This document shows, piece by piece, positions 4,414 through 64,000 of a stretch of 64,000 bases of DNA (its first letter is position 1; the number at the start of each line of letters is the position of its first letter). The notes under the pieces were generated by a model. It worked only from the letters and a program-made list of their open reading frames with translations. It was not told where the DNA came from and made no database searches. This stretch comes from Nannobrachium achirus (taxonomy: Eukaryota > Chordata > Actinopteri > Myctophiformes > Myctophidae), in assembly GCA_963921795.1 (NCBI GenBank), contig OY997648.1, forward strand, positions 1,772,501 through 1,836,500, written 5' to 3'. A program made the translations under genes and the position numbers.

Positions 4414-4424
4414 CTCCCCCAATC
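4414..4424 (-). other. BEL polypurine tract
   Basis: On the minus strand GATTGGGGGAG lies directly against the 3' LTR, where plus-strand priming would start. Confidence 0.7.
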
Positions 4425-4473
4425 ATGTTACCAGTATAAGAAAGAACATGATTCACAGCATCCATTTAAAAAG

Positions 4474-5387: not shown

Positions 5388-5392
5388 CCGTA

Positions 5393-6304: not shown

Positions 6305-6309
6305 TAAAT

Positions 6310-6327
6310 TGGGGGCTCCAGTCCGGT
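6310..6327 (+). other. Primer binding site, tRNA-Pro-like
   Basis: Five bases after the LTR, TGGGGGCTCCAGTCCGG resembles the tRNA-Pro primer site used by many retroelements (TGGGGGCTCGTCCGGGAT, from memory), with two extra bases after the ninth. The primer assignment is an inference from that match. Confidence 0.6.
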
Positions 6328-6564
6328 CTTTTCGAACCTGGTTAATTCCAATACTTTTTGCGACTTTTTTTTCTCGGTCTCGGGTAAAAATTGTCCTTAT
6401 TTGGAATTAATTTGCAGCTTGATTCATAGTATCCCTTAGTCTAGTCCTTATTTCGTTAAGTAGGCTTATCTTTGTACTTTTGGTTACTTCTGGTTACTTC
6501 CGTTTCATTCGTATTGATTTAAAGGTTAATGGGTTCTATTTCTCGATTTGGTGCGTAGACCTTG

Positions 6565-11316: not shown

Positions 11317-11349
11317 AAACCTTCTTTTTGGGAGGGGGAGGTTCTCTTT

Positions 11350-11360
11350 AGGAGGGGGGG
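11350..11360 (+). other. Gypsy polypurine tract, body 1
   Basis: AGGAGGGGGGG abuts LTR 2. A second purine run, GGGAGGGGGAG, lies just upstream. Confidence 0.8.
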
Positions 11361-12272
11361 TGTTACGGCCAGTGGTCGTATTATTATGATTATTATTTGG
11401 TATTATGATTCCATTATTATTCTTATTTGTGTTTGGACTTTGTATAATGGAATTCATTTAGAGTTATGGTGGGTTGGAATATATATATGATTTGAGGCTT
11501 GTATGAAAATGTACTTCTTTCTATTATCAAGGTGGTGAATGGAGACTGGCTGTGGAGTGAATGCAGAGTGCAGAGTTGAGTTGTGGTGCCATGCATGAGC
11601 TTGAGGTGGTTATTGAATGAGTGAGCAGATTGCCAGGTCCGGCCCTCAGACCTGCCCATGCCAGTCCCATTCGCCGATACCTGTTGACGCCCAGGCCAGG
11701 ATTGGCCATCCTGATGAGGCTGTTTCTACAAAAGTGCCATTCTGAGCTAACAGCAGTGAAGGACAGACGGCTTGTTTGCAGCAGAGGCTCGATTCCTCTC
11801 TCCTTCGAACCCATTGCCTAAGTTCCAGTACATACTTTTGCCTACTTTCGTTATTAGTTCATCTTCAGTGTATTTTGACTTAGTTTCTCCAGCCCTCCCA
11901 ACTTCTGTTGTTTAGTATTGTTATTCATTCCTTATTGTTCCACTTTTGTGTTGTCACAATGTAGGGGTGTTTGGTCTTTTGTTTTGGTCCCCTTTCTTTT
12001 TGTAAAGTTATTTAGATAGGTAAGTTAGGGTTAAGTATTTGTATCTTTATTTTTGTTAGGGGTTTCAGATTAGGGATATTTTCTTTTCAGTGTAGTGGTT
12101 TTTCTCAAATGTAAACCAGCACCTCGAAGCCTTTTCTCAACACTTGAAAAAAAAGCATCAAAATAGAGATTTTGTCTCTGACTAAAAAAATAATAAAAGA
12201 AACCTTTTTTGGAAAGTCGTTGTCCTGTCCATTTATGTTGCTTCTCCCGTCCCTAGCGGGTCAGTCGTAACA
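11361..12272 (+). repeat. Gypsy LTR 2 (internal, 912 bp)
   Basis: Same length and ends as LTR 1. It serves as the 3' LTR of body 1 and the 5' LTR of body 2. No target duplication flanks it: polypurine tract on one side, primer site on the other. Confidence 0.95.
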
Positions 12273-12277
12273 TAAAT

Positions 12278-12295
12278 TGGGGGCTCCAGTCCGGT
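12278..12295 (+). other. Primer binding site, body 2
   Basis: Same TGGGGGCTCCAGTCCGG sequence and spacing as at 6310. Confidence 0.6.
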
Positions 12296-12532
12296 CTTTT
12301 CGAACCTGGTTAATTCCAATACTTTTTGCGACTTTTTTTTCTCGGTCTCGGGTAAAAATTGTCCTTATTTGGAATTAATTTGCAGCTTGATTCATAGTAT
12401 CCCTTAGTCTAGTCCTTATTTCGTTAAGTAGGCTTATCTTTGTACTTTTGGTTACTTCTGGTTACTTCTGTTTCATTCGTATTGATTTAAAGGTTAATGG
12501 GTTCTATTTCTCGATTTGGTGCGTAGACCTTG

Positions 12533-15500: not shown

Positions 15501-17284
15501 GGAAAATGAAAGAGCGATATGATCGCAAATCTGTTAAACGTGAGTTTCAAGTGGGTGACAGGGTGCTGCTTTTGCTCCCTATGCTCACTTCTTCTCTGCA
15601 TGCTAAATTCTGTGGTCCATATGTTGTCGAAAAAAAACTGAGTGACACGGATTATGTTATTGGGACCCCAGACCGCCGTAGAAAGACCAGAGTGTGCCAC
15701 ATTAATATGCTCAAGCCATATTTCGTTCGCTCTGAGAGTGTTGCGCCTCCAGTTTCACCTGCCCCCGTAGCTTCTGTTGTGTCCGTTGCACCTTCACTTT
15801 ATTCCCCAGAAAGTGATGGTTTGCATCCTAAGGGCTCTTCTGGCTCTAGTTTGCGAAACTCTGAAATTCTGAAAAATCTGCCTTATCATTTGCAGCACTT
15901 GGATTTATTGGCTCAAGCAGACATTGGTGCTTTGATTAAAAATAATCCTACTCTCTTCTCAGATGTACCATCCCGCACTACGGTCCTCTCCCATGATGTG
16001 GACGTAGGTGAGAGTTCTCCTATTAAGCAGCATGCTTATAGGGTAAATCCCACTAAACGCTCTTTGTTTAAGAAAGAGGTGGATTATTTGCTAGAAAATG
16101 GGCTGGCCATTCCCAGTTCTAGTCCCTGGAGCTCTCCATGTTTGCTTGTGCCAAAATCTGACGGCAGTCAGCGCTTCTGTACAGATTACAGGAAAGTAAA
16201 TGGTGTTACTAAGCCTGATTCGTATCCTCTACCTCGTATGGAGGACTGTGTAGACCGCGTTGGTGCTGCTAAATTTGTTACGAAGCTCGATCTGCTTAAA
16301 GGATATTGGCAGGTCCCTTTAACTGATCGTGCTTCAGACATCTCTGCTTTCGTTACTCCCGATGGGTTGTATCAGTATACTGTTATGCCATTCGGGCTTC
16401 GTAATGCACCCGCTACATTTCAACGGCTTATGCACAATGTGTTAAGGGGAGTTGAAAACTGTGAGGTGTATCTCGATGATGTGGTTGCCTATTCGGATAC
16501 GTGGCCAGAGCATATGCACACTCTAGGGTTGATTTTCGGTAGGTTGGCGCGGGCTAACCTGACACTCAATCTGTCAAAGTGTGAATTTGGCCGTGCTACT
16601 GTCACATATCTGGGTAAGGAGGTGGGCCAGGGTCAAGTTCGGGCCATTGATGCCAAGGTCAAGGCCATTGTTAATTACCCTGTTCCTACTAGTCGCCGTA
16701 GTCTGCGACGTTTTCTAGGTATGTCTAGTTATTACCGCGCCTTCTGTAAAAATTTCGCTGATGTAGTCGCTCCTTTAACCAGTCTAACTAGTACTAAAAG
16801 GCCCTACATCTGGTCGCCTGCTTGTCAGCATGCTTTTGAGTGTTGTAAGGCTCTTCTCTGCAGCACTCCTGTTCTGGCTGCTCCAAACTTTAAGATGCCC
16901 TTCAAGCTGGAGGTGGATGCGAGTGACAATGGAGCCGGGGCAGTTCTGCTGCAGGAGGATGTCTCAGGTATAAACCATCCCATTTGTTACTACTCCAAAA
17001 AGTTTAACACACCGCAGAGCCACTACAGTACCATAGAAAAAGAGACTTTATCTCTGTTGCTTGCTGTACAGTTTTTTGAAGTCTACGTGGGTTCTAGCCC
17101 AATGCCTGTGGTTGTTTACACTGATCATAATCCTTTGGTTTTTTTGAGACAAATGAAGAATTCGAATCAAAGACTTATGAGGTGGTCCTTACTGGTACAG
17201 GACTTTAATTTGGATATTTGCCACAAGAGAGGGGCTGATAATGTCTTGGCAGACGCCCTTTCTCGCGTGTTTTCCCCAGCCTAG
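12533..17284 (+). CDS. Gypsy Gag-Pol polyprotein, copy 2
   Basis: Same length and domain order as copy 1: zinc knuckle, DTGAS protease, integrase with D-D-E core and GPY module, YLDD reverse transcriptase, RNase H. Two residues differ. An Arg in the SPPRSP stretch before the protease is His here, and a Ser in QPFRSQ just before the integrase zinc region is Tyr. None of the catalytic motifs is touched, so both copies look coding-competent. Neither body has a private target duplication. The near identity means duplication or insertion was very recent, or that the copies were homogenised. Confidence 0.95.
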   Translation: MLSGGFILLHRVCILFLFMASLASSGPVDEPDEVHYFPSSPTITKLDECTKPELLLIAKVFKADVNAGANKAEIKQSVVDKLIEKGIIGGVSEPAAIPSVRPRAHSGQGVDEAAASPPGYGTKVSPTTPNKLSEGDPGGLELALRLREVELQMKTHEVELLRLRNRAVELDRLPNPHRPTTVTTPPGTSTPSQSATVSAFDMTKHLALVPHFREAEIDSYFDAFERIATIVKWPQDVWSLLLQTKLVGKAREVCAALSMAESLDYATVKETILRAYELVPEAYRQRFRSCEKSANQTHGEFAREKAVLFDKWCSASNVKSMHLMRELVLLEEFKSCLPDRVVLYLNEQKVDTLAQAAVRADEFMLTHKSVFPSPSARRDPVGGKGGKKFSVLRNPPQSDSNGNSGSSESRERECFYCHEKGHVIKHCSALKRKENSGSAKPKTVGFIKSISPPHSPVAGEMEECFGPFLTKGSVSLSGQEGDQVPITILRDTGASQSLILNNVLPFSEKSFCGSDALVLGVEMNSLRAPLHSVFLRSPLVTGFVQVGTRECLPVGGVSLILGNDLAGEKVFPTPRVVENPVIDLDQSVMGTSALFPACAVTRAQARKGYDNVTLNDTFMCSDSPVTRSDIKPKKKVDNVLPIKTDFVFDVNKDAFVSAQQNDPSLAVCWGAARAQDAPSAYSVEDGILLRTWFPPGVGDLGWNSIKQVIVPQPFRYQILSLAHDSVSGHLGVRKTYHRIMRYFWWPGLKSDVSKFCRTCHVCQMMGKPNQVIPPAPLVPILAIGEPFEHIIIDCVGPLPKTKSGYQYLLTIMCAATRYPEAIPLRTLKAKYVINALVNFFSIFGLPISCQSDRGSNFTSKVFKQAMASLSIKRKLSSAFHPESQGVLERFHSTLKSTMKKYCAETGREWDVGLPFLLMAVRESVQESLGFSPNELVFGHSVRGPLRVLRDRLLLNPNVPASNVLDYVSAFRERLHKARDFARSALAESQGKMKERYDRKSVKREFQVGDRVLLLLPMLTSSLHAKFCGPYVVEKKLSDTDYVIGTPDRRRKTRVCHINMLKPYFVRSESVAPPVSPAPVASVVSVAPSLYSPESDGLHPKGSSGSSLRNSEILKNLPYHLQHLDLLAQADIGALIKNNPTLFSDVPSRTTVLSHDVDVGESSPIKQHAYRVNPTKRSLFKKEVDYLLENGLAIPSSSPWSSPCLLVPKSDGSQRFCTDYRKVNGVTKPDSYPLPRMEDCVDRVGAAKFVTKLDLLKGYWQVPLTDRASDISAFVTPDGLYQYTVMPFGLRNAPATFQRLMHNVLRGVENCEVYLDDVVAYSDTWPEHMHTLGLIFGRLARANLTLNLSKCEFGRATVTYLGKEVGQGQVRAIDAKVKAIVNYPVPTSRRSLRRFLGMSSYYRAFCKNFADVVAPLTSLTSTKRPYIWSPACQHAFECCKALLCSTPVLAAPNFKMPFKLEVDASDNGAGAVLLQEDVSGINHPICYYSKKFNTPQSHYSTIEKETLSLLLAVQFFEVYVGSSPMPVVVYTDHNPLVFLRQMKNSNQRLMRWSLLVQDFNLDICHKRGADNVLADALSRVFSPA

Positions 17285-17317
17285 AAACCTTCTTTTTGGG
17301 AGGGGGAGGTTCTCTTT

Positions 17318-17328
17318 AGGAGGGGGGG
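17318..17328 (+). other. Gypsy polypurine tract, body 2
   Basis: AGGAGGGGGGG directly before LTR 3. Confidence 0.8.
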
Positions 17329-18236
17329 TGTTACGGCCAGTGGTCGTATTATTATGATTATTATTTGGTATTATGATTCCATTATTATTCTTATTTGTGT
17401 TTGGACTTTGTATAATGGAATTCATTTAGAGTTATGGTGGGTTGGAATATATATATGATTTGAGGCTTGTATGAAAATGTACTTCTTTCTATTATCAAGG
17501 TGGTGAATGGAGACTGGCTGTGGAGTGAATGCAGAGTGCAGAGTTGAGTTGTGGTGCCATGCATGAGCTTGAGGTGGTTATTGAATGAGTGAGCAGATTG
17601 CCAGGTCCGGCCCTCAGACCTGCCCATGCCAGTCCCATTCGCCGATACCTGTTGACGCCCAGGCCAGGATTGGCCATCCTGATGAGGCTGTTTCTACAAA
17701 AGTGCCATTCTGAGCTAACAGCAGTGAAGGACAGACGGCTTGTTTGCAGCAGAGGCTCGATTCCTCTCTCCTTCGAACCCATTGCCTAAGTTCCAGTACA
17801 TACTTTTGCCTACTTTCGTTATTAGTTCATCTTCAGTGTATTTTGACTTAGTTTCTCCAGCCCTCCCAACTTCTGTTGTTTAGTATTGTTATTCATTCCT
17901 TATTGTTCCACTTTTGTGTTGTCACAATGTAGGGGTGTTTGGTCTTTTGTTTTGGTCCCCTTTCTTTTTGTAAAGTTATTTAGATAAGTTAGGGTTAAGT
18001 ATTTGTATCTTTATTTTTGTTAGGGGTTTCAGATTAGGGATATTTTCTTTTCAGTGTAGTGGTTTTTCTCAAATGTAAACCAGCACCTCGAAGCCTTTTC
18101 TCAACACTTGAAAAAAAAGCATCAAAATAGAGATTTTGTCTCTGACTAAAAAAATAATAAAAGAAACCTTTTTTGGAAAGTCGTTGTCCTGTCCATTTAT
18201 GTTGCTTCTCCCGTCCCTAGCGGGTCAGTCGTAACA
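17329..18236 (+). repeat. Gypsy LTR 3 (908 bp)
   Basis: Same as LTRs 1 and 2 except for a 4-bp deletion: TTAGATAAGTTAGGG here where the others read TTAGATAGGTAAGTTAGGG. It is followed by CCGTA, the right copy of the target duplication. Confidence 0.95.
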
Positions 18237-20403
18237 CCGTATCAATGGCCGTCATGGTACTGAGTTTAAGCTGGACGGGCTGGGTGTCTACTGCCAGGTC
18301 TTCAAGGATATTTTCCAAGACAAATGTGGAGTTACTTTGCGTATCAAGTGCTGCATAGGTTAGAACCTCTCTCTGTGGCTCCTCCTCAGACGATATAAAT
18401 ACCGGAACGATGGTTGTGGTGGCAGAAGCAGCTTGTCGGAACACTGTGTGAGTCGTGGCAGTATGGATCTCTCTCTCACCATGTCTCTCCGTGGAATTAG
18501 ACTCCCTCGCCAACTCTCCCCCCATCGCCGCTTCTCTCACCGGTCTTTCATCCCTGTCATGCAGGCTGGTGGGATGAGGTCGGCCACATGCGCCACAGGT
18601 ATGTCGCCTTCTGCATTCCTTGCTACTATGTCCCCTTCTCAGGCACCCGAAGCAGAGTTGATTTTCAAGAATGTACGATTTCTTATCTTCAAGAGATTTC
18701 TTTGCGAAGGTGGGGCATGTTGCGATACCATGTCCTTCCTGAGTACAAACGGGGCAGGTGAACAAAGGCTTGGAGTTCAAGTCATTACTCTGGGCACTGG
18801 TGTGGAAGGCACTGGTTCTTTTAGATGTTCTCTCATCTGCCGGCCGGCGATTTACCATGAAGGGAGAGGCAATGGGATTACAAGCTATACTAGCTTCTGT
18901 TTGAAGATACTTTGCAAAATGTGAGAAGGTCGGATAGTCTCCAGATTCTTCCAGTTCCTTGACTACCACTCTGCTCCATCTGCGCACAATCCATTCTGGT
19001 AGCCTTTTGAGGATTTTGTGGTTCTCCTCACAATCATTCAGAATGGATAATCCTTTAACATGTGGCATAGCCTCCACACAACTCTGTAGGAAATCAGCGA
19101 AGTCTCTGAGGGCAAAAGGATCATCTGAACTAATGTTGGGCCATTTCATTAGCTTGTCACGAAAAGCCTTTTGTACGATAAAGGGGTTTCCGTATCTGTC
19201 TTGTAAGACCTTCCAAGCTCCCTGGTATGCATCATCGGAGTTTCTGTAAAAGAAACCTTCCACAGCCCTGAGGGCTTCTCCAGCTAGATAGTGCTTCAAA
19301 TAGAACATTTTCTCACTCGCAGAAAGTGGCTGTCTGTCAATCAGTGCAATGAAAGACATTTTCCAGTCCACAAATTCTAATGGCTCCCCAGAAAAGGTTG
19401 TTGGCTCAGGAGCAGGGAGACGGTTGATACTTAGTGAACTTATGAGTGACTTGGTGAGACCTTCTGTATCCAGAGTAGCTGGTGAAATACTGGATGCTTG
19501 CATAGACTGGGATGGTGTTGCCTTTGGATTTGGTTGAGGAATTGATGTAACATTTGGAGTAGCAGAGAGTAAATTGTTAATTGGGTTGTTGCAGGGTTCA
19601 AGGTCACCTTGAAAGTTGTCATATGCCTGAACTCGTGCTGCTGCTACTTTAACATCCCGTTGAGCTTTAAGCTGCTTTAATTTAGCTTTTGCCTCTTGTA
19701 GTTTTGCTTGCTGGGTGTGGATTTCCTGCTGATATTTTTCTTTCTCCCTTTTAGCAGCAAAATCTGCTTCGGCATCAGCTCTCTTGCTGGAGCTAGTATC
19801 GGAGTGATTGCTGGCTATGGAAGGGGTTTGTGGCTGCAATGGGTGGGTTCCACGGGACTGTGCACGGTCATCTGCACCATGTGATGTTCCAGAGATAACT
19901 GTTTCTGTGTCAGTATGTCCAAATACTGAGCCAAACTCCTTTTTATTTAAAGCAATTCTGACATAGGCTTTAACAAGCTGCTCATTGAAAGGTTTGCCCA
20001 GAGTTTCCAAGTGCTTATTTACTATTTCGCAAATATCTGAGGTGATTATTATGCAGGTGTCCATTTTCTTTACGATATCTGGGGTAGGAGTGGAATTTTG
20101 CTGAATGGACTCATAGCCTTCACTTATTGCGGCGTGGTTGTTCTGAATGTTGGTTTTGATGTCGACAAGGTCCTCTGCTGAACAAAATGATTTTAATGCC
20201 TTTCGAGACTCTCTTGCAGCATGCATCCAGGTAGTGTAAGCTTTGTTAAATGCCTTTTCCTGTTTTTTCAATTTATCTGCATGCATCTTCTGGCCCTTCT
20301 CTGTTAGGGTTCTTTCACGGGTACTTTGTCTGACCTGGTGTGCATCGGTCACCGGCTCTTCATGCTCAATAGCATTGGGTGCGTTGACTTGTTCCCCCTT
20401 CAT
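18237..20403 (-). CDS. BEL gag and N-terminal protease part (split by Gypsy insertion)
   Basis: About 720 codons from the ATG at 20403. There is a charged helical N-terminal region (KLQEAKAKLKQLKAQRD, a coiled-coil candidate) and a DUF1759-type gag core (LPAPEPTTFSGEPLEFVDWK, then FYLKHYLAGEALRAVEGF). CCHC-like fingers follow (CPVCTQEGHGIATC, CFGCLRRGHSSKEC, CGACGRPHPTSLH), then the start of the retropepsin-like domain at AALDTQSNSTF, where the DTQS is the candidate active-site loop. The frame runs into the Gypsy LTR and picks up a few foreign residues before a stop. An upstream ATG at 20494 opens about 32 coding-looking codons (MAEHDETTV...) in another frame. That frame ends near the C5 run at 20394-20398, so the natural start may have been lost by a 1-bp slip. 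Confidence 0.88.
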
Positions 20404-20494
20404 TTTCAATAATGTCCGCTGTGTTGATAATTGTTTCTTCAGGTATCAATGCTGGTTGCTGCATGTTGACTGTAGTCTCATCATGTTCTGCCAT

Positions 20495-21103
20495 TTTGTT
20501 TGAATATTGACAATTCAGTTTAAACGACCATTGAAACGCAAGGCTTCACAATATGTATCACTTTGACCCTCAAAGTAATATAAAAAACAAACCAGCAAAT
20601 GTAGTACCTGACTCAAATGTCCCCTTTAATTGCCATGTATCCATCAACACAGCTTAAATACCTTGTTTAAACAACCATTAATGCAAGGCTTCACAATTAT
20701 CTACCATTTTGAACTTCAAAGTAATGTCAAAGAACAAACCAGCAAATGCAGTACTGACCCAAATGTCCCCTTTAACTGTCATGTATCAATGCAGCTCAAA
20801 ACCTTGTTTGGCACAACCTGAAATCCCTTCACATCAAAAAATACATTTTGTGTTTCACCCCTTTTGTCTTTGTTCTTGTAATTTTATTTTATTTTGTTGT
20901 CCTTTAAACGACCTTCAGTCTGGTGAAGAGTAGAGAATACCTGTCATTTGTCCTTTCAAAGCATGTGTTACCGTGTGTTGGGTGTTGTGTGACAAACTTG
21001 GGGCATGGGATGATGAGGAAGATGAAGAGGAAGATGGTGAGGAAGATGGCTGTAGATGAACTGTTGGTGTCGATGTTGAGTGGCTTCTGCGTCAAGTTTT
21101 CAC
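20495..21103 (-). other. BEL 5' leader with a tandem duplication
   Basis: Untranslated leader between the 5' LTR and gag. A segment of about 145 bp occurs twice, at roughly 20510-20650 and 20655-20800; shared phrases are GCAAGGCTTCACAAT, AACAAACCAGCAAATG and AATGTCCCCTTTAA. The minus strand right after the LTR reads GTGAAAACTTGACGCAG, the expected place of the primer site; I cannot name the tRNA. Confidence 0.65.
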
Positions 21104-22033
21104 TGTAGCTGCCCTGGGTTATGAATAAAGATGAAGCGGTTGTTTCCAAACGGGTGTCTTTTATTTTCGCCTCTTGTCACAATGAAGCATCATCGAACAC
21201 CGTGAAAACTATGAAAATAGAATTAAATAATATTACAAATACATTCATCACTTCATAGTTTCACGTCAACCATAAAAACTGTATTTCCATCAATGGCTTT
21301 TCAACAATTCAATTCAACAATAAGATAATTCATTAATGCAGTGATTCATTTCAATTTAGTTAAAAGCAATCAATCAATAACCCAGTCAATTTAAACTGCC
21401 AACAAACAAATACCAAAAACAAACAAAAGAACAAAGCAAAATATACAAAACTCAAAACGAAATACCAAGCAACTACAATTAAAGAGCTCCCAAATAATCA
21501 ACAATGAAGCACAAAACCTCAAACAAAGGAAACTCATGTTGCTACCTTGTTGCCGCTAACCGGGGGTTGCAAATCCTGTGCCAAGAAGAGCCACCTTTAC
21601 CAGCTTCTGGTGCCCCAAACAGTTGGTGATAGCATGGTGCTGTAGTATAAACAACATGAACAGAGCTCACTCAAACTGGTAAGACATTCCTTAAAGATTC
21701 AGATAAATGTTGCAAATGCTTACAAACAATTCATACCTGGCCAAATTGCTTTCCAAACAAAGTGTGGAGGTGTGCTGGCCTGTGCACCTGTGTGGCAGCT
21801 AATGCTGCTGCTGCAGTGTAACACTGTGTCTGTCTGAATGAGTGAACTGTGAAGCGTGCATGCATCACATATAGGAGCTCTGGTCAGTAACAGGAAGTAT
21901 CAGCAACAGGAAGTATCAAAATAAAGTTACAGGAAATGTCAAATTAAAGTAACCAAAATTAAGCAACAAAAGACAAAACTTTATTATAGAAATAATTCGA
22001 GTTTAAAAGTCTCAAGTGTCACGGGCACTTACA
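21104..22033 (-). repeat. BEL 5' LTR (930 bp)
   Basis: Partner of 3488-4413, 4 bp longer through one extra TCTG. It is followed on the plus strand by ACAGT, the outer target duplication. Confidence 0.93.
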
Positions 22034-54170: not shown

Positions 54171-55080
54171 GCCACTATAGACATAAAAAGCCCTTGCGGA
54201 GGTGGCCGTTACATTCTAATTCTAATACCACCTGAATGGCCCATCCCAACACCGGCCTCAGTGCCTTGCCTCACTAATCTTTAGACTCACAAGTCAACTA
54301 CAGCTCCTAGGACTGCTTGCACCACTGTTTCTCAGCCAAACGTGTTTCTTTTTTCTACAAGTATATATTTTTTTGTATTGTTTTTAGACCCAAATCCTAC
54401 AAACAGTCTCCTAAGTGGGTGCCGGTGTCTGATGGCAAATCTCCTGAATGTCCAGTTTACTGGGGCTAGAGTGTTTTGCTGGGACAGAGAAAGGTTGATG
54501 TAAAGTAGACTTTCTCCTTATTTGTGTCTCTGAAGAAAGCCATTTTAGTATGAAAATGTCTGGAATATTGTGTGTCTTTGTGACGATGGGGTCCAGTATT
54601 TAGTTCAGTGACCGTGGAGCAACAGAATGGTTCAGAAGCTGTGTTCACCTTCACTCTGCCACTGGAATGAATACATTCCACCCTGCTTCCTGCCTCCTCC
54701 CATAGACATAGAAAGGTAGACGCCTCCTTCGGCTCTGATGCATGTGCATCGAGGGACTAAGGGAATCACGTGTGCATTGCTTCCACGTGCGTCACACATA
54801 GGGAAGTTGCTAGGCCAATCAGAGGTAGGTGGGGGCGGGTCTTTACGTACGCAGCCTGTAAGAACAGCTGAGCCGCGCAACATCGGAACTGGCTCTGTTG
54901 AATTGAATTGTAGTCCTTGGATAAGTCCCGGAAAAATCGCGCTGTGATTGGCCAGTAGTCACTTTGACTGACAGCGTTCCCTTAGTTTTTCCAGGATGTC
55001 CGGACTACAACTGTTGCACGTCGCTCCAATGAACTGGAGAGGTGAACGAGGCATCTAGCTTTTTATATCTGTGCCTCCTC
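54171..55080. other. Sequence downstream of the anoctamin gene
   Basis: Probably 3' flank or last intron. No clear AATAAA on the minus strand near the stop at 55357, no recognisable exon, and no named repeat. Confidence 0.35.
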
Positions 55081-55356
55081 CTACACATACAGGCATTAAC
55101 CTGAGATGGTGAGTCTTGTTGTGTGAGTCTCTGTTCAGACTGACCTGAGCTCCTCCTACACATACAGGCAGTAACCTGAGACGGTGAGTCTTGTTGTGTG
55201 TGTCTCTGCTCAGACTGACCTACACATACAGGCAGTAACATAGAGGAGATGGTGAGTCTTGTTGTGTGTGTCTCTGTTCAGACTGACCTGAGCTCCTCCT
55301 ACACATACAGGCAGTAACATAGAGGAGACGGTGAGTCTTGTTGTGTGTGTCTCTGC
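55080..55356 (-). repeat. Tandem copies of the last-exon 3' edge
   Basis: A unit of about 70-80 bp (plus strand GGTGAGTCTTGTTGTGTGTG, then CAGACTGACCTGAGCTCCTC) is repeated three times and runs into the real exon end at 55357-55380. On the minus strand each full unit holds GAGGAGCTCAG|GTCAGT, a copy of the exon's GAAGAGCTCAG|GTCAGT; one unit lacks the GAGCTC part. Confidence 0.85.
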
Positions 55357-55479
55357 TCAGACTGACCTGAGCTCTTCCTTCAGACGGTTCAGTTTGTCCT
55401 GCAGTCTCTCGTTCTTCACCTGCATGGGAGCGCTGGGCACGAACCAGGCTGCGATGAACTTACACACCACTACCACATG
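55357..55479 (-). CDS. ano9: Anoctamin exon F (last recognised)
   Basis: Acceptor in a TG-rich tract (TGTGTGCAG), then 40 codons and TGA: the last membrane segment ([18 protein letters not shown]) and a short cytosolic coiled tail ([14 protein letters not shown]). A donor-like AG|GTCAGT sits ten bases before the stop, at 55367/55366. If it is used, the stop is intronic and a further exon follows. The stop as written is the simpler reading. Confidence 0.8.
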   Translation of the reverse strand, partial: HVVVVCKFIAAWFVPSAPMQVKNERLQDKLNRLKEELRSV

Positions 55480-58400
55480 CTGCACACACACACACACACA
55501 GGCACTGGTCGTTGTACATAATAATAATTAAGTAAGCAGTAATAGGATCAATAAAGCGTCTCAGTAAACAAATGTACCCATGGCATGTTTCTAAACAAGC
55601 TGCAAACTAAATTAACATTTCATCCTTCACATAAGACTGAGCAAAGGGTATTTCCCCTGGGATAATAAAGGTATCTATCTATCCATCCATCCATCCATCC
55701 ATCCATCCATCCATCCATTCATCCATCCATCCATCCATCCATCCATCCATTCATCCATATGTCCGTCCATCCGTCCATCCATAGCCTGTATTCAGGCATG
55801 TCTCATATGTATTAGTTTATTTAGTTTAGTTATTTAGTATTAGTATTATGATTGTTAGCTTGGTTATGGTTGTTATGTTAGTTACGCTGCCTGTCACACA
55901 GCAGTGACAGACGTGTGAATGTGTAAAACATGTGTCATTGAATGATGAATCCTTTCCGTACCTCAAATAGGATGACGAAGGCAAAGCGGACGGCGAGAAT
56001 GAGCCAGAACTGAGGAGTGAAGCTGTAGTCATCGTTGCTCCTGTAGTCTTTATAACTGTAGAGAGAAACACATTATTAAATACTGTAGTCTTTATAACTG
56101 TAGAGAGAAACACATTATTAATACTGTAGTCTTTATAGCTGTGAACACAACACATTGATACAGTAAAAATCACACCTACTGTGAAGTGAGCAGTGCTATT
56201 TATGAGTTAATTTCATCAAGTGTCCCGCTGGCCAATCACAGCCAATCACAGCATGTCCTGCTGCAATGTTTGGCCAATGGGGACCCTGGGCGTACAACAA
56301 ACTTTGAGCCCCGGACATTTTTAACACGTATTTTGAATGGACATTTTTCACAACAATCTTTGAGCCATTTGTGCCAGGATGTAGGCCATATCTAGGCCTG
56401 ATGTAGGCCATATCTAGACCAGATGTAGGCCATATCTAGGCCTGATGTAGCCCCCGCTACGTAAGCCCTTGGCAGTTTTGAACGTGTTTTCCCCTCAGTT
56501 TTTGACCGTACAAAGCTAGATTTTGGAACACTTTTATACAGCAGTCGTCTTTATAGCTGTGGAGACTGTGATGTGATACAGTATTAAATACTGTAGTATT
56601 TATGAAGACAGTATTAAATACTGTAATCTTTAAAGCTGTGGAGACAACACATTGATACAGTCATACAGTAGTTTACTGTGATGTGATTAGGGTTACTTTG
56701 GGCTCAAGCTGCACAAAGCCTCTCCCATCTGTCCACCAATAATAATGAAAACATCTATTCATATGAATACCTTCTATCAAACACTGCCTGAGCCTCAGGT
56801 CTCCATCCAGTGATTTTACTGCTTCACACGTTGTCAAGGACGACTGGAGTACAAGATCTTCACTGCCGTAATCAGTAACATTTGCATTTTCTCACCGTCA
56901 GTTGATTCTTCATATCAATGAGTCATATTTGATGTGAAAACAGTCCACGGCCCAGGTAGGATGTGTAAATGATGTCACCAGGTAGGATGTGTAAATGATG
57001 TCATCAGGTAGGATGTGTAAATGATGTCAGATGTTGGTTCTCTATGAACTTCTGTACTTACCTGTACTGTTAACAAGTTAATAACCTGCTAATAATGTAT
57101 TCAATCAATCAATCAAACAATCAATCTGACCTGCAGTAGGTGACGTTGAGGCCATCAGAGGTGACCATCTGGTGAGGGAGGAAGTCATGGATGTTCTGGT
57201 CGTTGGTCCAAGCCATGGAGAGAGTGTTGTTGATGTAGCCTGACATGCAGCTAGAGGAGAGAAGAGACATTACATTAACCACTAACCCTAACCCTATAGA
57301 GAGTGTTGTTGATGTAGCCTGACATACAGCTGGAAGAGACAATACTTTATATTAAACACTCTAACCACTAACCCTAACCCTATAGAGAGTGTTGTTGATG
57401 TAGCCTGACATACAGCTGTAAGAGAAGAGACACATTACATTAACCCTAACCCTATAGAGTGTTGTTGATGTAGCCTGACATACAGCTGTAGAGAAGAGAC
57501 AATAGTGTGTGCCAGCGGCTACGTCATTGTAGTCCTTAGCGGCCATTTCTTGGGTCAAAACGGTGTTTCAATTGTTTGATTGCATAGAACTAATGCTATA
57601 GTCTAATCAGAACCGATCAGAACACCTGTGTAAGGCTGTGTTTACCCAAGAAATGGCCGCTCTTAGAACTACATTTGGCACACCCTATACATTAACCACT
57701 AACCCTAACCCTATAGAGAGTGTTGTTGATGTAGCCTGACATACAGCTGTAGAGAAGAGACAATACATTAACCCTAACCCTATAGAGAGTGTTGTTGATG
57801 TAGCCTGACATGCAGCTGTAAAGAAGAGACAATACATTAACCCTAACCCTATAGAGAGTGTTGTTGATGTAGCCTGAAATGCAGCTGTAGAGAGAAGAGA
57901 CAAAACATTAACCCTAACCCTATAGAGAGTGTTGTTGATGTAGCCTGACATACAGCTGGAAGAGAGAAGAGACAATACATTAACCACTAACCCTAACCCT
58001 ATAGAGAGTGTTGTTGATGTAGCCTGACATACAGCTGTAGAGAGAAGAGACATTACATTAACCATAACCCTAACCCTATAGAGTGTTGTTGATGTAGCCT
58101 GAAATGCAGCTGTAGAGAAGAGAAGAGACAATACATTAACCACTAACACATTAAATACTAACACTATGGAGAGAGTGTTGTTGATGTAGCCTGACATACA
58201 GCTGTAAGAGACAACACTTATATTAAACACCCTAACCATTAAAGTGATCCCTGACTAATACGACAAATATGTCTTAATACATTATAATTGTCCTCTATAA
58301 CACAATGTACAATGTAAAATTAAAAACACCTTAAATATTGTATTTCTTCTAGAAATAGCTAATCTTTCACTCAGTAGGGGAAATGCCTGTCGCAAGTTGA

Positions 58401-60068
58401 TCATGTGCAAAAAAAACAAAACACAAACACATTTGAAATATTGATTTGATGCTCATATTAACCATAGGAAGTATTAAGTTTGTTTTTATTTTCACATCCA
58501 TGCCATTAATTCCATAGAATTAATGGCATGGTACATTAAACACTAAAGCCCTTATCAGAGTCGGTACCGCGGTGAAGAGCTATCCACCGCGTTGTAGTCT
58601 TTTTACGTCATTCCTCTCGGTGAAGAGCTTTCCACCGCGAGTCCCGACACATCTCTCTGTTTTTTCTATCAGACAGATAGGCTCTACACCCCGTTCACTG
58701 ATTGGTCGATCTAGACTAGTCAGTCACGGTGAATAGGACTCCACCGTGACGGACTATGATGGCCTTCACTTATTTTCTGACTTGAGGTGGAAAGCTTTCC
58801 ACCTCAAATTTGCGGTGGATAGCTCTTCACCGCAGACTCTGATAGAGGCTTAACACTCTAACCACTAACCTATAGAGTGTTGTTGATGTAGCCTGACATG
58901 CAGCTGTAGGAGACAACATTTTACATGAACCTAAAACCTAAAAGACCCTGTCCTGTCAGACAAATAGATGAAAATAGACAATCCATAATCTCACAAGGCA
59001 TCGTGATGCATTCTGAGCTTGTAGATCAGCTAGTTTAGCTATTTGTGAATATTTTTAAACGTTAAAAAGATTGGTTACAACAAATTATAATTTAAACATT
59101 CACAATGACATGTACAGTATGCATAAACTCCTACTCGGTGTGTGTGTCGGTGCCGTTAGCACAGTATGCTATGGTGATATGTTATGGTGGTATGTTATGG
59201 TGGTATGTTATGGTGGTATGTTATGGTGGTATGTTATGGTGGTATGTTATGGTGGTATGTTATGGTGGTATGTTATGGTGATATGTTATGGTGGTATGTT
59301 ATGGTGGTATGTTATGGTGGTATGTTATGGTGATATGTTATGGTGGTATGTTATGGTGGTATGTTATGGTGGTATGTTATGGTGATATGTTATGGTGGTA
59401 TGTTATGGTGGTATGTTATGGTGGTATGTTATGGTGATATGTTATGGTGGTATGTTATGGTGGTATGTTATGGTGGTATGTTATGGTGGTATGTTATGGT
59501 GGTATGTTATGGTGGTATGTTATGGTGGTATGTTATGGTGGTATGTTATGGTGATATGTTATGGTGGTATGTTATGGTGGTATGTTATGGTGGTATGTTA
59601 TGGTGGTATGTTATGGTGATATGTTATGGTGGTATGTTATGGTGGTATGTTATGGTGGTATGTTATGGTGGTATGTTATGGTGATATGTTATGGTGGTAT
59701 GTTATGGTGGTATGTTATGGTGGTATGTTATGGTGGTATGTTATGGTGATATGTTATGGTGGTATGTTATGGTGGTATGTTATGGTGGTATGTTATGGTG
59801 ATATGTTATGGTGATATGGTTCATACTCAGTGTGTGTGTCGGTGCCGTTAGCACAGGGTCTGTAGCAGTAGCTGTTAGCACAGTATGTTATGGTGTTATG
59901 GATCGTACTCTGTGTGTGTGTCGGTGCCGTTAGCACACGGTCCGTAGCGAAAGCGGTAAACCAGACGTGGGATGAAGTCTGAAGACACTCCGATCACCAG
60001 ACCGTTAGCGATGACCGCTAGCACACCGATAGCCTCCAGCACACCCGTCCACACACCTGGTAGGACAA

Positions 60069-60137
<69 letters not shown>

Positions 60138-63100
60138 TTATTAACAGCAATTCTAGTCCAAGCCACCAGTGACCCTTTTTTTTTCACGTGGAAAAAATCT
60201 AACCAAGTTTGGAGTGAGCCGTGGTGCGTGTGTGGCCGTTTGTGTGTTGCAGTTCATTTCAGGGCTGCGCGTGTGTGTGACGCAACAGCTTGGTTACCTG
60301 TGGTACACCCTGAGGAGACGGTGTGACCACCGCTCAAAAATACAACCGCGATGATCAGTGTGTAAGTTATGTTCCATAGAAAACATGATCTGTGTGTAAG
60401 TTATGTTCCATAGAAAACATGATCTGTGTGTAAGTTATGGTCCATAGAAAACATGCTCTGTGTGTAAGTTATGGTCCATAGAAAACATGATCAGTGTGTA
60501 AGTTATGGTCCATAGAAAACATGATCTGTGTGTAAGTTATGGTCCATAGAAAACATGATGATCTGTGTGTAAGTTATGGTCCATAGAAAACACATGATGA
60601 TCTATGTGTAAGTTATGGTCCATAGAAAACATGATGATCTGTGTGTAAGTTATGGTCCATAGAAAACATGATCTGTGTGTAAGTTATGGTCCATAGAAAA
60701 CATGATGATCTGTGTGTAAGTTATGGTCCATAGAAAACATGATGATCTATGTGTAAGTTATGGTCCATAGAAAACATGATGATCTGTGTGTAAGTTATGG
60801 TCCATAGAAAACATGATGATCTGTGTGTAAGTTATGGTCCATAGAAAACATGATCTGTGTGTAAGTTATGGTCCATAGAAAACATGATGATCTGTGTGTA
60901 AGTTATGGTCCATAGAAAACATGATGATCTATGTGTAAGTTATGGTCCATAGAAAACATGATGATCTGTGTGTAAGTTATGGTCCATAGAAAACATGATG
61001 ATCTATGTGTAAGTTATGGTCCATAGAAAACATGATGATCTGTGTGTAAGTTATGGTCCATAGAAAACATGATGATCTGTGTGTAAGTTATGGTCCATAG
61101 AAAACATGATCTGTGTGTAAGTTATGGTCCATAGAAAACATGATGATCTGTGTGTAAGTTATGGTCCATAGAAAACATGATGATCTATGTGTAAGTTATG
61201 GTCCATAGAAAACATGATGATCTGTGTGTAAGTTATGGTCCATAGAAAACATGATGATCTATGTGTAAGTTATGGTCCATAGAAAACATGATGATCTGTG
61301 TGTAAGTTATGGTCCATAGAAAACATGATGATCTGTGTGTAAGTTATGGTCCATAGAAAACATGATCTGTGTGTAAGTTATGGTCCATAGAAAACATGGG
61401 CCATTTTGACCAAGCGCGATATGGGATAAATAAATGAAACGTACCGATATCGTTGGTTTTGGAGGGAACCATCCTGCGCTCCAGAGTCACCATCTTGATG
61501 GCGTCCAATCGGATCTCGATGATGTTGTTGATCAGAGCCAGCAGGGGAGCCAATGGGAACGCTGCTACGAAGATGGTGGTGAAGCTGAACTGGATCACTG
61601 TGAAAATATGAACTGGATCACTGTGGGATCAATACAATATGAACTGATCACTGTGGGATCAATACAATATGAACTGATCACTGTATGATCAATACAATAT
61701 GAACTGATCACTGTATGATCAATACAATATGAACTGATCACTGTGGGATCAATACAATATGAACTGATCACTGTATGATCAATACAATATGAACTGATCA
61801 CTGTATGATCAATACAATATGAACTGATCACTGTGGGATCAATACAATATGAACTGGATCACTGTATGATCAATACAATATGAACTGATCACTGTGAAAA
61901 TATGAACTGGATCACTGTGGGATCAATACAATATGAACTGATCACTGTGAAAACATGAACTGGATCAGTGTGAAAATATGAACTGGATCACTGTGGGATC
62001 AATACAATATGAACTGATCACTGTGGGATCAATACAATATGAACTGATCACTGTGAAAACATGAACTGGATCAGTGTGAAAATATGAACTGGATCACTGT
62101 GGGATCAATACAATATGAACTGGATCACTGTGAAAACATGAACTGGATCAGTGTGAAAATATGAACTGGATCACTGTGGGATCAATACAATATGAACTGA
62201 TCACTGTGGGATCAATACAATATGAACTGATCACTGTGGGATCAACACAGAATTTCAAGACTGTGTGACAAAACAAATCCATGAAACGTAGCGTAGCAGG
62301 CTGGTACCAGGCTACCCCTGAGTTACATTGATACTTTACAGCACCTTACATTTATGTGATATTACAGTACTTTTATGTGATATTACAGTACTTTTATGTG
62401 ATATTACAGTACTTTTATGTGATATTACAGTACTTTTATGTGATATTACAGTACTTTTATGTGATATTACAGTACATTTATGTGATATTACAGTACTTTT
62501 ATGTGATATTACAGTACATTTATGTGATATTACAGTACTTTTATGTGATATTACAGTACGTAATATTATGTGATATTACAGTACTTTTATGTGATATTAC
62601 AGTACATTTATGTGATATTACAGTACTTTTATGTGATATTACAGTACGTAATATTATGTGATATTACAGTACTTTTATGTGATATTACAGTACATTTATG
62701 TGATATTACAGTACTTTTATGTGATATTACAGTACATTTATGTGATATTACAGTACATTTATGTGATATTACAGTACTTTTATGTGATATTACAGTACAT
62801 TTATGTGATATTACAGTACATTTATGTGATATTACAGTACTTTTATGTGATATTACAGTACTTTTATGTGATATTACAGTACTTTTATGTGATATTACAG
62901 TACATTTATGTGATATTACAGTACTTTTATGTGATATTACAGTACTTTTATGTGATATTACAGTACATTTATGTGATATTACAGTACTTTTATGTGATAT
63001 TACAGTACTTTTATGTGATATTACAGTACTTTTATGTGATATTACAGTACTTTTATGTGATATTACAGTACTTTTATGTGATATTACAGTACATAAACAT

Positions 63101-64000
63101 GGAAATCTTTCCTCATGATACACGGTTTATGTCATGAGGAAAACATCTGTTTCCATTATAGGACAGTTTGGAAATAACTTTATATTTGACATAGAACCAC
63201 TTGAACCCACCTAAACCCATAGCACTACTGTAACACTCCCCTTCACCCATACATGGAGGAATACATGAAGCTAGACAGCATTTTTAGGTTTTAGAAACGA
63301 TTTGTACTGACTAGGTGCGTGGTCATTTTGACTTGCTTATTGTAAGTGGCCGTTGGCAAGTGTAGGACGTGCCAGGACCACCCACATCTCTACAAGCAGC
63401 TCAGGGTAAGTAAAATAGCAAAAAAAAACATTGTATTGGATTGAAAAAAAAAATCGGCACAAGAAGGGTTAATGTCCCAAGTGCGTCAGTGTGTCTCACC
63501 CATCTCCAGGAACTCGTTGAACAGACTGACAGTAGGTAGGGGTTAGGGGTTAGGGGCTAGGGGTTAGGGGTTAGGGGTTAGGGGTTTAATGTTAGGGGTT
63601 AGGGGTTAGGGGGTAGTGTTAAATGTCTCACCCATCTCCAGGAACTCGTTGAACAGACTGAATGAGTCCACGTGGTTCAGACTGTAGTTACTGAGTATGT
63701 AACAGGGTGTAACAGTGTGTCAGTGTGTCAGAGTGTAGTTACTGAGTATGTAACAGTATGTAACAGTATGTAACAGGGTGTAACAGTGTGTCAGTGTGTC
63801 AGTGTGTCTCACCCATCTCCAGGAACTCGTTGAACAGACTGAATGAGTCCACGTGGTTCAGACTGTAGTTACTGAGCCACTCCTTCAGCTTACAGTTCTC
63901 ACACAGCTCCTCCCCATGGCTGCTCTCTAGCTCCTCCTGCTGGTAGCGATGAGCACACTTCCTCTGCAGCTTCTGGGTCCTCCTGCCCTTCAGCCAGCTG
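55357..64000 (-). CDS. ano9: Anoctamin (TMEM16) family gene, ANO9-like, 3' half
   Basis: Six minus-strand exons, 5' edge cut by the window: >63813, 61597-61445, 60056-59909, 57250-57131, 56055-55962, 55479-55357. All junctions have GT/AG sites and join in phase. The product is the C-terminal part of an anoctamin: a cytosolic linker with a Cys pair, transmembrane helices around the calcium site, an extracellular loop with N-glycosylation sequons, and the last two membrane segments. EFLE and EIRLD correspond to calcium-site residues of ANO1 (E702/E705 and E734/D738). [15 protein letters not shown] and KFIAAWFVP fit ANO9 better than other paralogues, by recollection. Anoctamins are calcium-activated channels or lipid scramblases. 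The introns are filled with tandem arrays, several built from exon edges. Confidence 0.82.
55480..55961 (-). repeat. Intron E-F: LINE tail and (ATCC)n
   Basis: (AC)n next to the acceptor, then TTTCCCCTGGGATAATAAAG with TATCTATCTATCC and about 20 CATC-type tetramers (55675-55765). No other structure. Confidence 0.75.
55962..56055 (-). CDS. ano9: Anoctamin exon E
   Basis: From acceptor CTCTACAG to donor GAG|GTACGG. Encodes the rest of the C-S-Y-K-D-Y-R motif and the helix [20 protein letters not shown]. Most anoctamins have C-R-Y-R/K-D-Y-R; here the junction codon gives Ser instead of Arg. Confidence 0.88.
56056..56670 (-). repeat. Copies of the exon E acceptor edge
   Basis: CTGTAGTCTTTATAACTGTA with GAGAGAAACACATTATTA from the real junction (56041-56080) is repeated at about 56083-56120 and 56125-56145. 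More diverged copies (GTCTTTATAGCTGTGGAGA) are at 56550 and 56625. In between, CTAGGCCTGATGTAGGCCAT (56385-56450) forms a separate short tandem repeat. Confidence 0.75.
57131..57250 (-). CDS. ano9: Anoctamin exon D
   Basis: Acceptor CTCCTCTAG, donor TGCAG|GTCAGA. Encodes [14 protein letters not shown]...GLNVTYC, the extracellular loop before the last helices, with two N-glycosylation sequons (NNT and NVT). Cys residues at both ends are a family feature. Its first 29 bases are copied 11 times in the upstream intron. Confidence 0.88.
57492..57685. mobile_element. Short TIR element inside the exon D array
   Basis: Ends TGTGTGCCAGCGG and TTTGGCACACCC, with TAGCGGCCATTTCTTGGGT mirrored by ACCCAAGAAATGGCCGCT. 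About 195 bp. Confidence 0.75.
58498..58531. repeat. 34-bp palindrome
   Basis: CCATGCCATTAATTC pairs with GAATTAATGGCATGG, with a four-base centre. Confidence 0.85.
58544..58853. mobile_element. TIR element (about 310 bp)
   Basis: Left TAAAGCCCTTATCAGAGTC, right GACTCTGATAGAGGCTTA. GCGGTGAAGAGCTATCCACC is mirrored by GGTGGATAGCTCTTCACCGC. Internal repeats of TTTCCACC and GGTGGAAAG. Inserted in the exon D array. Confidence 0.85.
59130..59905 (-). repeat. 13-bp minisatellite bracketed by exon C donor-edge copies
   Basis: About 50 units of GGTATGTTATGGT from 59160 to 59815. A GATATG variant appears at regular steps, giving a 65-bp higher-order period in places. Copies of the exon C end (TGTGTGTCGGTGCCGTTAGC) flank the array at 59138-59162 and 59828-59852; the real one is at 59912-59935. 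Confidence 0.92.
59909..60056 (-). CDS. ano9: Anoctamin exon C
   Basis: Acceptor CCTACCAG, donor ACAGA|GTACGA. Encodes [20 protein letters not shown] (a membrane helix), then [20 protein letters not shown] and a Thr-rich turn. SDFIPR and YGPC are strongly conserved in anoctamins. Phase fits exons B and D. Confidence 0.92.
60071..60133. repeat. (AC)n microsatellite next to the exon C acceptor
   Basis: (AC)n begins 15 bp upstream (minus strand) of the acceptor, where a pyrimidine tract would be expected. Confidence 0.93.
60355..61400. repeat. 34-37-bp minisatellite, about 30 copies
   Basis: Unit GATCTGTGTGTAAGTTATGG plus TCCATAGAAAACAT, alternating 34-bp (GATCTG) and 37-bp (GATGATCTG) forms in a semi-regular order. 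On the minus strand the unit holds CTTACACACAG, acceptor-like, but I found no exon sequence in it. Confidence 0.93.
61445..61597 (-). CDS. ano9: Anoctamin exon B
   Basis: Acceptor TTTTCACAG, donor ATCG|GTACGT. Encodes [35 protein letters not shown] and [12 protein letters not shown]: the conserved core of the family. EIRLD holds the residues matching E734 and D738 of ANO1. LDAIKMV rather than LDAYKFV supports ANO9 over ANO3/4/6 (from memory of the family). Confidence 0.95.
61598..62250 (-). repeat. Tandem array of exon B acceptor copies, about 23 units
   Basis: Units of 22-30 bp, GAACTGATCACTGTGGGATC plus AATACAATAT, with variants GTATGATC and GTGAAAATAT. On the minus strand each reads CACAG|TGATC(C)AGTTC, the exon B acceptor with about 11 exon bases. 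GTGAAAATATG units are exact intron-edge copies. Confidence 0.93.
62340..63092. repeat. 21-bp minisatellite, about 35 copies
   Basis: Unit TACTTTTATGTGATATTACAG with a TACATTTATG variant; a GTACGTAATATTATG variant occurs twice. It contains a TATTACAG acceptor-like motif, but on the plus strand (antisense to the gene). Long periodic open frames on both strands are artefacts. Confidence 0.95.
63480..63812 (-). repeat. Exon A donor-edge copies with TTAGGGG repeats
   Basis: CTCACCCATCTCCAGGAACT, the exon A end with its donor, is copied at 63495-63528 and 63626-63695; the second copy extends about 60 bases into the exon. GGGGTTAGGGGTTAGG runs lie between (63537-63612), and GTAACAGTGTGTCAGTGTGT repeats follow (63700-63800). 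Confidence 0.9.
63813..64000 (-). CDS. ano9: Anoctamin exon A (partial, cut by window edge)
   Basis: Open to the window end. Encodes a basic stretch ([15 protein letters not shown]), an acidic segment with CENC, then [15 protein letters not shown] ending at ATGG|GTGAGA. The last codon is completed by exon B (E-M-V-I-Q-F). The two Glu of EFLE match the calcium-site pair E702/E705 of ANO1. Further 5' exons lie to the right. Confidence 0.9.

Follow-up and report, generated by a model that had tools for sequence, protein, structure and literature searches.

Exon-edge copies in the introns of anoctamin genes from one chromosome region of the fish Nannobrachium achirus

The window analysed here, a stretch of 64,000 nucleotides of contig OY997648.1 from the myctophid Nannobrachium achirus, contains six exons (A to F) that form the 3' part of an ano9 gene on the minus strand. 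The gene matches the Pfam Anoctamin domain PF04547 (1.6e-57), and anoctamin-9-like is among its best named homologues. The open frame is intact through all six exons, their coding sequence aligns with homologues without an unexplained break, and no ano9 was found in viral contigs. Exon A is probably the terminal exon, because its frame closes with a stop (EELRSV*), much as two close homologues end (EELKSFDA and EELKSFEA). Given that several other fish homologues extend some residues past this point, and that the GTCAGT found there is donor-like, the end of exon A may alternatively be a donor.

Table 1. Exons, tandem arrays and exon-edge copies in the ano9 part of the window.
Feature	Position	Strand	Basis
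79-bp array containing 3 copies of the end of exon A with its stop codon	55075..55382	-	TRF
Exon A, ending in TGA; probably the last ano9 exon	55357..55479	-	six-exon open frame; two close homologues ending likewise
Exon B	55962..56055	-	open frame
42-bp array across the exon B acceptor, with 15 exon bases	56041..56142	-	TRF, junction probes
Exon C	57131..57250	-	open frame
Array of about 70-bp units across the exon C acceptor	57219..58237	-	TRF
Two exon D donor copies bracketing a 13-bp array (59164-59818)	59129..59908	-	TRF
Candidate mini-exon, 33 nt, in-frame, AG...GT flanked, within a copied exon D end	59827..59859	-	sequence only
Exon D	59909..60056	-	open frame
37-bp array, no exon-edge match	60350..61398	-	TRF, edge probes
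Exon E	61445..61597	-	open frame
23/30-bp array across the exon E acceptor, with 12 exon bases	61586..62249	-	TRF
21-bp array, no exon-edge match	62347..63092	-	TRF, edge probes
Two exon F donor copies (at most 64 exon bases) enclosing 7-bp and 10-bp arrays	63480..63812	-	TRF for inner arrays; copies by probe
Exon F, truncated at the window end	63813..64000	-	open frame

Probes made of 15 exon and 10 intron bases from each junction were searched for nearby copies; none of 300 control probes scored 15 or more against the shuffled region. Copies lie near 6 of the 11 testable exon edges (scores 17.5-25), namely the end of A, the acceptors of B, C and E, and the donors of D and F. The acceptors of A and D and the donors of B, C and E gave no copies with these probes (9.5-11). 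Exactly one edge is therefore copied in each exon, the second edge of F lying outside the window, and 5 of the window's 10 splice edges are included. The first-pass annotation had described exon-edge copying throughout the gene, which holds for one edge in all six exons and fails as a statement about every edge, 5 of 11 being uncopied. With the gene on the minus strand, its labels for the B acceptor, E acceptor and F donor are retained, while the A edge is probably the stop end, the C edge an acceptor and the D edge a donor. Its estimate of about 10-60 copied exon bases agrees with the measured 9 to 64 (2 in one B copy that the masked probe truncates). Further copies of the exon B acceptor occur at 56544-56632. 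The AG is kept in all 11 exon C junction copies, found in the acceptor array and at 58874-58931, and in 9 of 12 exon E junction copies. The candidate mini-exon beside exon D translates to [12 protein letters not shown]. In addition to the unmatched arrays of Table 1, the 22-bp and 26-bp arrays of the window have no edge-probe match.

The number of copied edges in the window is by itself no excess, because about 61% of 1592 noncoding 25-mers in the region are copied (52-65% by threshold). Occupancy was nevertheless set aside as a full explanation, since it counts copies and not founding duplications; an excess over chance becomes visible once founding units are counted or array ends are mapped.

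Both were done with TRF on 104 intronic arrays; the 60 introns concerned belong to seven anoctamin loci and lie mostly outside the sequence seen in the first-pass annotation. An exon edge is straddled by 23 of these arrays, against 5.3 expected under uniform placement, the null of random array starts that the annotation had proposed; in the six non-ano9 loci the figures are 16 and 3.7 (P about 2e-6). The claim that arrays begin at exon edges each time is not borne out, as the other arrays do not straddle an edge and neither do 4 of the 10 non-nested arrays in the window. The straddling arrays (11 at donors and 12 at acceptors in the TRF list) have units of 25-139 bp. Their internal identity is 96% at the median, compared with 90% for the others, and they may thus be younger or better homogenised. 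For units of at least 25 bp, 23 array ends lie 5-40 bp inside exons, 5 within 0-20 bp of the edge on the intron side and 7 at an intron depth of 20-100 bp; with the unit cut-off lowered to 10 bp the counts are 23, 8 and 15. Per base, ends 5-40 bp inside exons exceed those 20-100 bp into introns 7.5-fold and 3.5-fold, respectively, values that hinge on TRF boundaries on the exon side (TRF missed the F donor array). No end lies deeper than 40 bp inside an exon in the TRF data. Coverage has no peak at the edge, with 24% copied there compared with 36-40% at intron positions 20-100 bp away. Across the seven loci, array ends depend on exon edges and do not follow random minisatellite placement.

The annotation had also suggested looking at other genes, and the pattern extends to some of them only. 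In C11:1.8-6.5 Mb, five anoctamin genes have copies at 28 of 84 edges outside the window, and at 33 of 94 with the window included, compared with 0.4% of shuffle trials (n=280). A separate junction copy outside a wider masked probe is present for 28 of the 33 copied edges and lacking for 5. Outside this interval only 2 of 74 edges are copied: none of 26 at C11 18.8 and 36.5 Mb, none of 8 on C3 at 1.09 Mb, 2 of 10 at a C7 locus 2.0 Mb from the chromosome end, and none of 30 in four CCT genes. The CCT set consists of partial calls with 15 introns, in which 2 of 7 query frames (L037 and L039) look wrong-strand and the C14 and C19 genes matched at only 39-49% identity. Four of 64 introns with doubtful junctions (8 edges) were dropped, C11:60.8 Mb yielded no introns, and the PSS locus, covered only by 25-mers every 20 bp, was left out of the 74. 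Also outside the 74 are six loci judged at match ends and not at called splice sites: L002, L003, L006 and L007 have no edge copies there, and in L004 and L008 one match end carries copied sequence that runs into GT or CA repeats. Subtelomeric position as the sole cause was set aside in view of the C3 and C7 counts. Because copies are nearly absent elsewhere, exon ends alone are insufficient to explain them, and edge copying is confined to some loci, as judged on anoctamins alone inside C11:1.8-6.5 Mb. All affected genes are anoctamins. Three are related ano9-type paralogs with some copied edges in common, so the events are not fully independent; private to the paralogs at 6.40 and 6.47 Mb are a copied E donor and a copied C donor, respectively, and judging from these private copies the gain of edge copies seems to be ongoing.

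A rival account would place duplications of 25-140 bp at random in tiny ancestral introns of about 85 bp, where they would be likely to hit edges, with later insertions lengthening the introns. Among 120 listed homologues, a short F-E intron of 72-93 nt is read through in 7 ano9-like sequences (2215 bp here) and a short E-D intron of 87 nt in 1 (1388 bp here), with inserts in P0034 (monkey) and the more distant P0077 at F-E, and in P0077 and P0095 at E-D, set aside; read-through can, however, reveal short introns only. If nine arrays fall without nesting into five 85-bp introns, they reach a mean of 4.5 of 10 splice edges, with a probability of 0.51 for the 5 observed or more, so the window alone is consistent with this account, although the expectation falls to 2.1 (P 0.016) if later arrays may arise within earlier growth. 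If all arrays preceded all insertions, the most extreme random history, 104 arrays would give 15.6 straddlers (range 5-25, covering the observed 23), but a mixed order gives 5.7 and insertions first 1.8. The array ends speak against this account: even the arrays-first history places 17 in exons and 22 in flanking introns, against 23 and 7 observed (P about 2e-4), a ratio reached in none of nine simulated random histories, and the internal likeness of straddling arrays is no lower than that of the others. Small ancestral introns thus fit the five window introns, fail on the array-end ratio of 60 introns, and are a rather improbable explanation overall. The annotation's proposal of a process tied to exon ends is partly supported, by those ends; the straddler count alone lies within the range of the arrays-first history, and the window alone fits short introns.

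Duplications might instead be uniform, with longer persistence of arrays anchored by a conserved exon copy, through a protected template or the lack of clean deletion, or with arrays creeping through successive duplications until an exon stops them. The clustering of ends just within exons with none deeper, the D and F copies that bracket other arrays, and the higher identity of edge arrays, as expected from renewal off a conserved copy, are all compatible with such survival; yet if edge arrays are assumed to be detected twice as readily, P is still 0.012-0.025 for the six window edges, and we consider this account unlikely. An assembly artefact is very improbable, since the copies carry point changes and indels relative to one another, are found again at homologous edges of separate loci and leave the frame intact. 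Selection for decoy splice sites or nascent alternative exons could point to the in-frame mini-exon candidate and to the 145 of 153 copies in which both splice bases are kept. These bases are conserved at 0.974, like the exonic neighbours (0.975; intronic bases 0.953), which gives no clear sign of selection; the copies decay neutrally, and a functional role has next to no probability. The same figures, together with an edge that is probably a stop codon among the six, give no support to the tie to splicing suggested earlier.

The copies lie on the intron side, recur at donors and acceptors in five genes and exceed random placement. The explanation we favour, and regard as probable, is that they are minisatellites of the mirage type known from amphioxus, and that the exon-end excess arises because tandem duplication, in a chromosome region prone to minisatellites, is mutationally biased toward exon ends; we infer such a bias rather than better survival of exon-anchored arrays. 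A short junction-spanning segment (25-139 bp), usually with one end 5-40 bp within the exon, would be tandemly duplicated intron-ward and then grow through the slippage or unequal exchange usual in minisatellites. The gene would survive because the true splice site and frame stay in the exon-proximal copy, and the remaining copies would turn into neutral intron. More tentatively, exon ends in some chromosome regions could be preferred starts of tandem duplication, with repeated junction copying lengthening the introns from the edge; these starts might arise via repair linked to transcription, chromatin or meiotic breaks.

The pattern had been thought undescribed, but its kind is known. According to the accessible portions of PMC3087553 and PMC3902484, amphioxus mirages (Adh3, the globins BflGb6 and BflGb9, TnC and PGBD5) are minisatellite-like tandem duplications of exon-intron boundaries, at donors and acceptors, with units of 10 to about 160 bp; many copies carry AG/GT, BflGb6 units are 81-100% identical, and splicing is reported as undisturbed. 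As far as these portions allow comparison, the fish copies likewise span boundaries of both types and mostly keep AG/GT. Unlike the amphioxus cases they occur in a teleost, where five genes of a single region each have several copied edges; their excess over random placement has been measured, and elsewhere they are nearly absent. Normal splicing is reported in amphioxus, whereas the fish case is known from the open frame of one assembly. Intron gain by tandem duplication of AGGT segments, as outlined in the accessible part of PMC4974935 (Rogers; ATP2A1; potato RdRp), shares the short in-gene duplication bearing splice signals, whereas the fish duplications lengthen existing introns, with no sign in the six exons of a new exon or of a new spliced intron within a former exon. 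In human segmentally duplicated genes, internal tandem repeats also sit at exon-intron boundaries, and the available text of PMC2812944 states that they can alter gene structure, changing exons or introns between paralogs; the fish six-exon frame is intact. The accessible parts of two fish papers (PMC2688266 and PMC3045353) describe no boundary copies, and no report of boundary minisatellites in fish was found among the listed titles and abstract openings of open-access papers. New here are a teleost mirage case, a test of edge preference and the regional restriction.

Amphioxus mirages are, in the accessible portions of those papers, single-gene reports, while here a preference for exon ends can be counted in several genes of a vertebrate, which allows a long-known curiosity to be tested as a process of mutation or of survival. 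The finding bears on intron lengthening and on the supply of new splice sites and exons, and gene prediction in such regions should expect many near-perfect decoy junctions. If introns do grow from their edges in this way, junction copying would keep furnishing ready candidate exons and splice sites.

In anoctamin genes of Nannobrachium achirus, tandem copies span exon edges (exon-intron junctions), sit on the intron side, decay neutrally, concentrate regionally and are over-represented just inside exons. Within the window, they occur beside the last six recognisable exons (F to A) of ano9, a minus-strand anoctamin gene at the right end. The spliced exons give a single open frame terminating in TGA, whose product has a Pfam Anoctamin match of 1.6e-57 and also matches fish ano9 proteins in the homologue listing. 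Two of the closest homologues listed, one at 84% and one at 80% from Knipowitschia caucasica, a goby, end in EELKSFDA or EELKSFEA, at the position matching the EELRSV and stop of the window gene. Exon A is therefore probably the terminal exon and its copied end, labelled a donor in the first-pass annotation, probably the stop codon, although several other fish homologues carry extra residues beyond this point, leaving room for a donor. The labels of exons C and D had been swapped, the copied edge being the acceptor of C and the donor of D.

Nearby copies were sought with a 25-base probe across each edge. Every visible exon had been said to have a copied edge; six of the 11 window edges were indeed copied (A end, B acceptor, C acceptor, D donor, E acceptor and F donor), and the other five lacked a nearby copy, while in a shuffled control region 0 of 300 probes scored as high as 15. 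Since copies carry 9 to 64 exon bases, the units span the junction, as proposed, and do not begin at it. Of 29 copies that cross a junction, counted over all five splice edges, 26 retain GT or AG. Minisatellites (unit 7 or more) cover 54.2% of positions 55000-63812, versus 4.0% of 1-54999 and zero between 49 and 55 kb; at the gene's 3' end, coverage passes from zero to over a third inside 1 kb (49-55 versus 55-64 kb).

Exons, repeats, elements and tested loci, with copied edges per locus (C, chromosome of the assembly)
Feature	Location	Strand	Content
Exon F	63813-64000 (cut)	minus	six-exon open frame; GT/AG kept in 2/2 copies
Exon E	61445-61597	minus	six-exon open frame; kept in 9/12
Exon D	59909-60056	minus	six-exon open frame; kept in 2/2
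Exon C	57131-57250	minus	six-exon open frame; kept in 11/11
Exon B	55962-56055	minus	six-exon open frame; kept in 2/2
Exon A	55357-55479	minus	six-exon open frame
Candidate nascent exon	59827-59859		33 nt, in frame, AG/GT-flanked, within copy of exon D end; would add 11 residues
Telomere-like motifs	57291-57996		four TTAGGGTTAG, inside exon C repeats
Telomere-like array	63537-63616		TAGGGGT, between exon F copies
Inverted repeats, MITE-like	57538-57661; 58569-58833		C-D intron, among exon C copies
LTR-retroelement-like unit	3488-22033		0.93-kb ends, 99.6% identical
Long-ORF element	5393-18236		two tandem copies, 99.9% identical
ano9, window part			5/10 copied edges
ano9, rest			6/16
Anoctamin locus	C11 1.95 Mb		5/14
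Anoctamin locus	C11 2.92 Mb		5/14
Anoctamin locus	C11 6.40 Mb		6/16
Anoctamin locus	C11 6.47 Mb		6/24
Anoctamin locus	C11 18.8 Mb		0/12
Anoctamin locus	C11 36.5 Mb		0/14
Anoctamin locus	C3		0/8
Anoctamin locus	C7		2/10
Four CCT genes, partly called			0/30
CCT single-frame matches	C14:10.17M, C1:8.25M, C19:51.61M, C5:7.92M, C13:44.36M, C10:58.16M, C6:20.36M
Phosphatidylserine synthase single-frame matches	C1:34.17M, C6:70.97M
Anoctamin single-frame match	C24:26.07M		960-residue frame

By occupancy, six of 11 is unsurprising, because the region's noncoding sequence is itself largely copied (about 61% of 1592 25-mers). When founding units were counted instead, in collapsed introns, 1.4 to 2.6 edge arrays were expected and 6 observed (P 0.0006 to 0.025, without to with a two-fold detection bias for edge arrays). 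As six exons picked for looking odd are weak evidence, the test was extended to the rest of the 1.66-Gb assembly, in which the window is C11:1772501-1836500, taking in ano9 beyond the window together with six more C11 anoctamin loci. Protein-guided splicing called 64 introns, four doubtful ones were removed, and edges scoring 16 or more counted as copied.

A check on other genes of the species extends the pattern to C11:1.8-6.5 Mb, where the genes tested were anoctamins only: 33 of 94 edges were copied there versus 2 of 74 elsewhere (P 6e-8), or 28 of 84 versus 2 of 74 with window edges left out (P 3e-7), both P values assuming independent edges, an assumption that related paralogs break. A wider masked probe detected at least one separate junction copy at 28 of the 33 copied edges, all such copies being intron-side; of the five edges where it detected none, four lie at 6.40 Mb (three donors, one acceptor) and one, a donor, at 6.47 Mb. 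In the phosphatidylserine synthase gene at C11 64.09 Mb (locus L044), tetranucleotide arrays at 414-522 and 1096-1214 both begin about 10 bp past the ends of exon matches, and beyond them copied 25-mers, sampled every 20 bp, were not seen.

Across 60 introns of seven C11 loci, 23 of 104 arrays straddle an edge, against 5.3 (SD 2.15) expected from uniform founding in collapsed present-day introns, which partly supports the earlier suspicion that placement is not random; with the ano9 piece left out, 16 were observed against 3.7. For units of at least 25 bp (64 arrays), 23 array ends lie between 5 and 40 bp inside an exon; on the intron side, 5 lie within 0-20 bp of the edge and 7 within 20-100 bp (23, 8 and 15 for units of at least 10 bp). 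None lies deeper than 40 bp inside an exon; the F array, with copies of up to 64 exon bases, escaped TRF. By coverage the edge is no peak, because exon-starting arrays continue into the intron: at 110 edges outside the window, the copied fraction climbs from 1% at 50 bp inside exons to 24% at the edge, reaches 36-40% on the intron side at 20-100 bp, and is down to 21% at 400 bp (72 positions).

Random duplication in introns of formerly about 85 bp, where most duplications touch an edge, is an improbable source of these arrays, even though such short introns do occur: among 120 homologues listed, the F-E intron (2215 bp here) is read through as 72-93 nt in seven fish-like ones and the E-D intron (1388 bp here) as 87 nt in one. 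Nine un-nested arrays in five 85-bp introns would touch a mean of 4.5 of 10 edges, so close to the 5 seen that this origin is not rejected on the window alone, but the mean falls to 2.1 once later arrays may land within earlier growth. Simulated straddlers from 85-bp introns number 1.8 (0-5) with insertions first, 5.7 (0-16) mixed and 15.6 (5-25) last; the observed 23 fall within this last, extreme case, but its array ends divide 17 to 22, versus 23 to 7 observed. In our own simple models, the straddler count is thus attainable in an extreme history and the end distribution is not.

Both splice bases are kept in 145 of 153 junction copies over all copied edges, where base identity (splice bases 0.974, other exonic 0.975, other intronic 0.953) gives no clear sign of selection for or against decoy sites. 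Edge arrays match internally at a median of 96% (23 arrays), versus 90% for other arrays with units of at least 25 (41). The three ano9-type loci (1.83, 6.40 and 6.47 Mb) have some copied edges in common and others of their own: the window gene alone has a copied C acceptor and a copied F donor, 6.47 Mb alone a copied C donor (C edges were called at these two loci), and 6.40 Mb alone a copied E donor. Since copied edges differ between these paralogs, the duplication process seems ongoing.

Other elements were also encountered. The LTR-retroelement-like unit encloses the long-ORF copies as if one element lay in tandem inside another. Beside intron-containing genes, near full-length, stop-free single-frame matches number at least seven for CCT chaperonin, at least two for phosphatidylserine synthase and at least one for anoctamin, an unusually large set of intact retrocopy-like genes. 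Kinase-like ORFs (319 and 327 residues; six places at E 1.3e-44, five at 5.3e-41), with identical scores across several chromosomes and small contigs, resemble either a mobile element in many copies or a captured gene.

The first-pass annotation knew of no earlier account of such a gene-wide pattern; mirages, the boundary-spanning minisatellites of amphioxus genes, are a known kind, and the available text of their reports describes splicing as undisturbed and the mechanism as unclear (PMC3087553, PMC3902484). Three of their defining features recur here: boundary-spanning tandem copies, donors and acceptors both hit, and many copies keeping AG/GT. The window gene shows an intact open frame. Compared with mirages as that text presents them, the teleost host, density, statistics and regional restriction differ. 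The C3 and 1.95 Mb loci share the same best query yet differ in copied edges, which points weakly to location, not gene family, as the determinant. We infer that short tandem duplications have arisen repeatedly, their breakpoints falling preferentially near exon ends, and that minisatellite expansion then followed; in this one genome, the favour may concern either the birth or the survival of arrays. Carriers would be viable because the exon-proximal copy still gives the original splice product.
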